DNA of 11,428 nt from Alistipes sp. GTDB taxonomy: Bacteria > Bacteroidota > Bacteroidia > Bacteroidales > Rikenellaceae. The stretch spans positions 1 through 11,428 of the forward strand of contig JAIDKM010000312.1 of NCBI GenBank assembly GCA_029051915.1, in the 5' to 3' direction. Every line of letters begins with the position of its first letter. Position 1 is the first letter of the stretch. The notes below the pieces were generated by a model. That model made no database searches, was not told the DNA's origin, and worked only from the letters and a program-made list of their open reading frames with translations. The position numbers and the translations under genes are program-made. This document shows positions 517-1,639 of this stretch, piece after piece.

Positions 517-1572
517 TCATTCGGCTGCGCGCTCCTCGAACCAAGCGGCAGACCGGAAATTATAAGCAGAATAATTGTAGGTATTCTGATCCTCGTAAGG
601 CTTGAAAACGAGTGCCTTTACATCCCATGTCTGCTTGACGGACGAAATTGCGTAATAGAACGTATTCGACAAAACGGCGCTCTGCTCGAACCAACCGCTG
701 ATAGTGCGCGGCTCGTAATCAATCAATGAAATTTCGCTATTGTTGAGGACGCGGATAGTCGATGTCCGTTCGTATGTGGTGAACGTCGAAACGATGGGTA
801 CCACCTCCATCGAACAAACGAGCGTTACCGGAAATTCGCGCACGGGAAGCTGGAACGAATATCGTCCCTGGCTGTCGGTCGTCGCATTATAATGGAACGT
901 CCTGTCGCCGTAATTTACGGTCAGAATCAAATCCGCATTGACGGCGGAGTCGTAGTAATATTCGAGAAAAGCCGATCGATAACCGATGATATTATCGTAT
1001 TCATTGCGTACGGAAGCGATGGCGACCTTATATTCCATATTCTTGCCGACGCGGCCCTCGAGCGTAGCGTACTCGTAATAAGCATCGGGCAACTCCTCGT
1101 TGCTGGTCTCGATACAAACCATATCGCCATAAACGATACCGTGGCTTCGGATTTTGACGGATGAGAATGCCCCGTATACGACATTCTCCGAAACGGTAGT
1201 TACCTCGTTGTTCACCCGCTGTACTGAAATATGATTGCCTTCGAACTGCTCGGTATACACCGCAGCCGAAACGGACTGGGTCGGAGCCGGAATTTCGAGC
1301 TCGTACTTACCGGCATCATCGGTAAGGGTCTCGAAAACAGTGATGCCCGAAAAATTCGAGCCATAAGCCGAATTGTCGACCTCCACGAATACTTTGAGGT
1401 TGGCAGCCGGCTTGTAATCATAAACGAATCGACCTCCGCTGAGAGTCGTACCCTCGTTATAAGTAACGGTACCACGGATTTTAGCCTTTCCAGGCACCCG
1501 GTCGATGTCGAAAACGGATTGCTCTTCACAACTCGATACCCACATCAGAGCCAAAGCTGCGACGAGCCGCAC
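517..1572 (-). CDS. Lipoprotein with transthyretin-like repeats; start disrupted by a C-run
   Basis: The in-frame reading starts at a GTG (1572) and gives 351 residues. It carries a lipobox, WVSSC, with Cys15 followed by acidic EEQ, so the mature protein should be lipidated, perhaps surface-exposed. Two repeats resemble carboxypeptidase-regulatory or transthyretin-like Ig folds: about 30-110 with TDDAGKYELEIPA (84-96), and about 170-260 with TDSQGRYSFQLPV (232-244). The GTG is probably not the natural start. An ATG at 1595, with an AT-rich leader and a promoter 37 bp upstream, would give MKHFPPPSVRLVAALALMWVSSC, a better signal peptide, but it is one base out of frame because of nine C at 1584-1576. 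Ten or seven C would restore it. With nine, the ATG yields only 16 residues (stop at 1547-1545). Function unknown; likely an envelope partner of the downstream barrel protein. Confidence 0.8.
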   Translation of the reverse strand: MRLVAALALMWVSSCEEQSVFDIDRVPGKAKIRGTVTYNEGTTLSGGRFVYDYKPAANLKVFVEVDNSAYGSNFSGITVFETLTDDAGKYELEIPAPTQSVSAAVYTEQFEGNHISVQRVNNEVTTVSENVVYGAFSSVKIRSHGIVYGDMVCIETSNEELPDAYYEYATLEGRVGKNMEYKVAIASVRNEYDNIIGYRSAFLEYYYDSAVNADLILTVNYGDRTFHYNATTDSQGRYSFQLPVREFPVTLVCSMEVVPIVSTFTTYERTSTIRVLNNSEISLIDYEPRTISGWFEQSAVLSNTFYYAISSVKQTWDVKALVFKPYEDQNTYNYSAYNFRSAAWFEERAAE

Positions 1573-1575
1573 GGA

Positions 1576-1584
1576 GGGGGGGGG
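1576..1584 (-). repeat. Nine-base poly-C tract inside the lipoprotein signal-peptide region
   Basis: Nine consecutive G on the plus strand (C on the coding strand) lie between the ATG at 1595 and the in-frame GTG at 1572. The distance from ATG to GTG is 23 bases, one short of a codon multiple. Runs of this kind at the 5' end of surface-protein genes are classic slipped-strand switches. Here 7, 10 or 13 C would be ON, while 8 and 9 both lead to early stops. It is the longest G or C homopolymer I noticed in the window. Confidence 0.75.
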
Positions 1585-1631
1585 AAATGTTTCATTGCAA
1601 AAAGATTAGGTTAATGAATAAAAGAACTTTA

Positions 1632-1639
1632 CAAAAGTA
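1632..1639 (-). promoter_or_regulatory. Putative promoter (-7 element) for the lipoprotein operon
   Basis: On the minus strand this reads TACTTTTG, a full match to the Bacteroidetes -7 consensus TAnnTTTG. Transcription would start near 1625, about 30 bases before the ATG at 1595. That supports 1595 rather than 1572 as the natural start. The -33 element is poor: only a T-run (1659-1653) lies roughly where TTTG should be. Confidence 0.55.

Follow-up and report, generated by a model that had tools for sequence, protein, structure and literature searches.

A nine-base poly-C run at the start of an Alistipes lipoprotein gene, a candidate phase-variable switch, and the genus-wide pile-up of C/G runs at nine bases

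Poly-G/C contingency loci of Campylobacter jejuni carry G/C homopolymers in surface-structure genes, and in this they resemble the locus described here. They vary by slipped-strand mispairing, at rates given in Table 2 of PMC8224891. From the rates in that table we computed a stationary length distribution that peaks at nine and in which nines are 2.0 times as frequent as eights. The genus Alistipes comes near this ratio, since 1739 runs of eight and at least 4150 of exactly nine were counted over 180 genomes, where runs of nine or more summed to 5279 and runs of ten or more to at most 1314. On the longer side the two differ. The ratio of ten-or-more to nine is 0.64 from the C. jejuni rates in the same table, against at most 0.32 in the 180 genomes and at most 0.12 in 153 genus genomes with few ten-C matches. 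Also unlike the C. jejuni case, mutS1 is present in the genus, and the locus in the window (the whole stretch of 11,428 nucleotides analysed) is a candidate switch known from its sequence.

Nearer in descent, the Bacteroidales, including Bacteroides, vary surface features by DNA inversion, as outlined in a review (PMC11868660). These relatives of the same order are alike in varying surface features; they do so by an invertible segment, whereas the window holds a candidate homopolymer frame shift. The literature matches listed, mainly open-access, held nothing on homopolymer phase variation in surface genes of Alistipes, Rikenellaceae or Bacteroidales, which does not establish its absence in print.

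The third comparison is with a small, unnamed family of Alistipes lipoproteins, one member of which is recorded as “hypothetical protein [Alistipes sp.]”. Its members align with the window protein and have the same barrel-type neighbour. The difference is at the gene start, where a C/G run of seven or more is present in the window and absent at the loci of all six relatives.

The lipoprotein gene start and its relatives

The minus strand reads ATG (1595-1593), MKHF, nine C (1584-1576), TCC and GTG 1572, with the nine C coming right after the fourth codon of the ATG-1595 frame (Table 1). The GTG-1572 frame is open over 351 codons with the N-terminus VRLVAALALMWVSSC, and the two frames are one base apart. 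Provided that ATG 1595 is the start, the length of the run sets whether this ATG and the gene share a frame. The original prediction had described the C9, the ATG, a leader of 16 residues and the GTG, and all of them are correct in the sequence. Since the frames are offset by one base, its list of joining lengths (7, 10 or 13 C) is also sound arithmetic.

Table 1. Features of the lipoprotein locus, in positions of the window
Feature	Position	Strand	Basis or remark
Poly-C run, exactly nine C (nine G on the plus strand)	1576..1584	-	sequence
ATG-1595 frame, 16 residues MKHFPPPPCGSSQLWL and stop	1545..1595	-	MKHF/MKYF starts in relatives L003, L006 and L008
Lipoprotein frame, 351 codons from GTG 1572, with lipobox-like WVSSC	517..1572	-	sequence, relatives
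TACTTTTG, fit to the Bacteroidetes -7 promoter box	1632..1639	-	first base 44 nt upstream of the ATG
Outer-membrane barrel-type protein, gene start, truncated at contig end	2..481	-	next gene after the lipoprotein gene

At nine bases, the run exceeds the 7 or 8 bases used as a threshold for homopolymers in the 5' part of slipped-strand phase-variable genes. From its base composition, the window would be expected to contain about 0.06 runs of C or G that are nine or longer (0.026 + 0.030). Upstream, TACTTTTG fits TAnnTTTG, the consensus of the Bacteroidetes -7 promoter box. A scan for sigma-70 type promoters gave 3 sites against 1.9 in shuffles, which is chance level, and no RNA structure above chance was found at the gene start (z 0.70).

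In terms of domains, CarboxypepD_reg (PF13620) scored 22.2 bits in the window lipoprotein, below the Pfam gathering cut-off of 32.3, and none of the NCBIfam models attained its cut-off against this protein. The barrel-type fragment gave no Pfam match. The lipobox-like motif together with the barrel-type neighbour suggests a surface location of the predicted product, which is common though not obligatory for products of slipped-strand phase-variable genes.

Matches to the window lipoprotein at E 1e-3 or better are found in 7 of the 180 genus genomes, own genome counted. All six relatives outside the own genome have an ATG start and a full lipoprotein signal, with the N-termini MKHFSIF (L003), MKKILL (L004), MKNFTN (L005), MKHFYKF (L006), MRKITN (L007) and MKYFYKF (L008); the frame of L008 has 175 codons only. 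L006 does have a C10, but about 1.4 kb upstream of its start. Identities of the window protein to four of the relatives are 30, 26, 26 and 27% in one alignment. As in the window, a barrel-type gene adjoins the lipoprotein gene in six of six relatives; one of these barrels is above the OMP_b-brl cut-off and another one tested was without a match. The original prediction had taken ATG 1595 as the natural start, and this is borne out as far as relatives can tell: it probably is the ancestral start, because all six relatives begin at ATG with a full signal, three of them with MKHF or MKYF, and have no C run there. None of these six is a homologue that combines a conserved GTG start with the lack of a run, the pattern that would speak for the GTG.

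A profile search returned 28 proteins. The lipobox cysteine, counted by eye, is at residue 17-24 in 12 of the 14 family proteins fetched besides P0001, and at 13 (P0020) and 38 (P0007) in the other two. P0001 itself is a protein record that is 87% identical to the window protein over 351 residues, of the same length and undamaged. It is annotated from the position equivalent to GTG 1572.

C/G run lengths in the genome, the genus and beyond

In the own genome (G000), 23 C/G runs reach eight bases or more; 19 of them have nine, four have eight and none is longer. A first-order model expects 34.5 eights, 8.6 nines and 2.8 of ten or more. The nines are thus only about twofold above the model, and what stands out is how the runs cluster at exactly nine while eights are few and tens are missing. 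Five of the 23 runs are within 150 nt of a contig end (contigs C4, C80, C178, C325 and C366; p ~0.015). Among own-genome contigs, no flank pairs matched that would give an alternative run length, runs with less than 60 nt of flank (e.g. L039) being excluded.

The same picture is seen across the genus. In 161 of the 180 genomes there are more runs of nine or longer than eights, and exact nines, taken at their lower bound, exceed eights in 138. The median count of the nine-C pattern is 20.5 in the genus, 13 in 72 genomes from other genera of the same family and 1 in 36 same-class genomes. Several genomes of the same phylum but other classes have tens of nine-C matches, and high counts therefore also occur beyond the family. 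The genus is the only group in which the mode at nine was determined, the others being scored by nine-C count alone. mutS1 is above its cut-off in 57 of 61 genomes.

A common motif at the runs, such as a transposon end or a binding site, was considered and rejected: 96 runs of exactly nine have no shared flank, with a weak bias confined to the bases touching the run.

As for position, 106 runs of eight or more were placed in five genomes, 23 inside predicted genes and 83 outside or at their ends, the latter figure being an over-count since some gene starts are trimmed. The cluster at L109 was excluded from these 106. The runs of G002, G005, G007 and G008 were drawn from nine-or-more lists, first places per genome, so eights are under-sampled. 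An N-terminal coding placement was assigned to the window run, L133, L134, L147, L160 and L163. Since most runs are outside genes, the class cannot be regarded overall as a collection of gene switches. Selection on the reading frame as a general cause of nine is ruled out, because the runs outside genes are also nine.

Two arrangements outside genes are recorded in their own right. In gaps between tandem genes, 18 of 47 runs are G on the sense strand, 4-19 nt past the last sense codon (e.g. L093, L094, L108, L116 and L155). At L109 (G005:C2:767072-771134), one intergenic stretch contains eight clustered C runs of 8 to 20 bases.

Reading frame and run length in other genes

Coding nine-base runs are in frame in 21 of 22 cases, and the window run is the sole exception. 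A run was scored as coding when coding sequence was present on both sides or when it followed an in-frame ATG start; frames were judged by reading, and L042 and L103, in weakly scoring frames, were omitted. The in-frame nines are distributed as 7 in G000, 1 in G005, 1 in G002, 7 in G008 and 5 in G007, so that in the own genome all seven scored coding nines besides the window run are in frame. On the other side, all five coding ten-base runs (L062, L067, L073, L076 and L077) are out of frame, these having been taken from 30 loci of ten or more, one per genome. The difference between nines and tens has a Fisher p of 7e-5, the two sets being sampled differently. Of the eight-base coding runs, L046 is out of frame, and L044 and one in L091 are in frame.

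L046 (G000:C120:4495-4502) is a second lipoprotein of the own genome, with its G8 out of frame just past the lipobox. Several SusC-type genes (L041, L057, L132, L133, L137, L147, L149 and L165) have in-frame nines in the signal peptide or the first mature residues.

One of these SusC genes, L041, has matches in 87 of the 180 genomes, and the best 30 of the 87 were compared. Seven have C9, one (G020) has C10 and 22 are without a run of eight or more. The C9 is in frame in six of the seven, L170 being outside this count. It is also in frame in L137, and in the copy of G008, which is not among the best 30. In G020 the C10 is in the SusC signal peptide and out of frame. Between this genome and G140 the identity is 87.5% over 3.6 kb, and their run regions differ by the extra C and two preceding substitutions. 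The length of the run does change, as seen between different species in this SusC gene. For another SusC family, G9 is present and in frame in all four of the nearest orthologues, with seven weaker matches not in the count.

An HTH-regulator gene with a G9 run in front of it (L058/L290, run at G000:C301:511-519) is matched in 129 genomes. Among the best 30 compared (L289-L318), 17 have G9, one has G8, twelve are without a run and none has ten or more. The G9 is placed 1-8 nt ahead of the ATG, at the Shine-Dalgarno position.

Candidate switching and its alternatives

The leading explanation for the candidate locus is a slip-prone, phase-variable run, which we hold tentatively and with a confidence a little short of even. 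The C9 would be a slip-prone homopolymer in the signal-peptide region, with ATG 1595 as the natural start. Gain or loss of a C in replication would decide whether the signal peptide shares a frame with the remaining gene. Cells would then differ in making the lipoprotein, and coupling might extend the difference to the barrel protein of the following gene. The sequenced C9 allele would represent the resting OFF state, and other lengths would restore the frame in a minority of ON cells. What we infer is that the run slips here, that the slippage is reversible and that expression is affected. In favour of a switch, the ATG that encodes MKHF is retained, although relatives with 26-30% identity have a plain ATG and no run.

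The phase-variable switch of the original prediction is plausible and better supported than could be known at the time: it gains from the genus-wide class of runs and from the one-base change of frame in a SusC gene between species. Against it, nine is the usual length in the genus, and the window gene would therefore rest OFF. A second DNA copy of the locus was found neither in genome_contigs (single-protein query) nor in viral_contigs or the phage records; one allele was read, and with a single copy no length variation was seen there. The HTH nines are tightly held and runs of ten or more are rare, which argues for slow change. Slow change is also suspected because the upper side of the length distribution is steeper than the C. 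jejuni rates would give, and because mutS1 is present, so that slippage may be repaired.

The alternative that survives best, which we nevertheless rate as rather unlikely, is that translation now begins at GTG 1572, with the C run in the leader, the ATG frame as a remnant of the old start and no switch. From this GTG the product would begin MRLVAALALMWVSSC, a short yet possible lipoprotein signal, and short signals are called elsewhere in the family too (e.g. P0020). The usual length of nine would then do no harm, and 351 codons are intact in both the window gene and P0001, which is called from the same position. The start of P0001 fits a genuine GTG start as well as an OFF state. What weighs against the GTG is the position of the lipobox cysteine, at residue 15 in the window protein and 14 in P0001 when counted from there, outside the 17-24 of most family proteins. 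Furthermore, the sequence before the GTG is rich in C, and the ATG has been retained together with MKHF.

The frames are one base apart across a nine-base homopolymer, on which RNA polymerase or the ribosome might slip; full-length protein would then be made from the ATG steadily, at a low level, while the DNA is unchanged. This would account for an intact gene out of frame at a stable length. It is improbable in our judgement, as the stimulatory RNA structure is not above chance, and as known runs of transcriptional slippage are A or T in most cases, as is also stated in PMC3711429.

An assembly or sequencing error, with a true run one base different and a gene simply in frame, has some grounds in a genome of 392 contigs that is 82% complete, where the runs near contig ends hint at assembly trouble. 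We consider it very improbable, because exactly nine is commonest and ten rare in independent assemblies of the genus, and because the other coding nines of the own genome are in frame. P0001 is relevant here as well: judging from the protein only, an in-frame run would probably have made the gene caller use the upstream ATG, and its call from the GTG position makes a private error less likely.

A recent pseudogene, its start lost, would fit a natural start out of frame in the single DNA copy. This is highly improbable, since nothing interrupts the other 351 codons and P0001 has the same length, undamaged at 13% protein divergence, so that the gene seems not to have been abandoned.

Taking the phase-variable run as the preferred reading of the locus, a broader joint reading is possible, although doubtful. 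In it, G/C runs across the Rikenellaceae would be set at exactly nine in mutS1-bearing cells, and one-base departures would silence SusC-type receptors, lipoproteins and a sensor-like gene. For the window gene the logic would be reversed, with OFF at nine, and the same G9 would be at the ribosome-binding site of the HTH regulator, the whole forming a homopolymer phase-variation repertoire.

If this is right, a common gut genus would gain slipped-strand switching of lipoproteins and SusC-type receptors, within an order that is known to vary by DNA inversion, together with a genome-wide list of candidate loci. In practical terms, gene callers may misplace starts at such runs. Of more interest than the switch reading of a single locus is the accumulation of runs at exactly nine throughout the genus: a sharp mode at nine, in coding and non-coding sequence and in genomes with mutS1, is a measurable puzzle on the control of homopolymer length.
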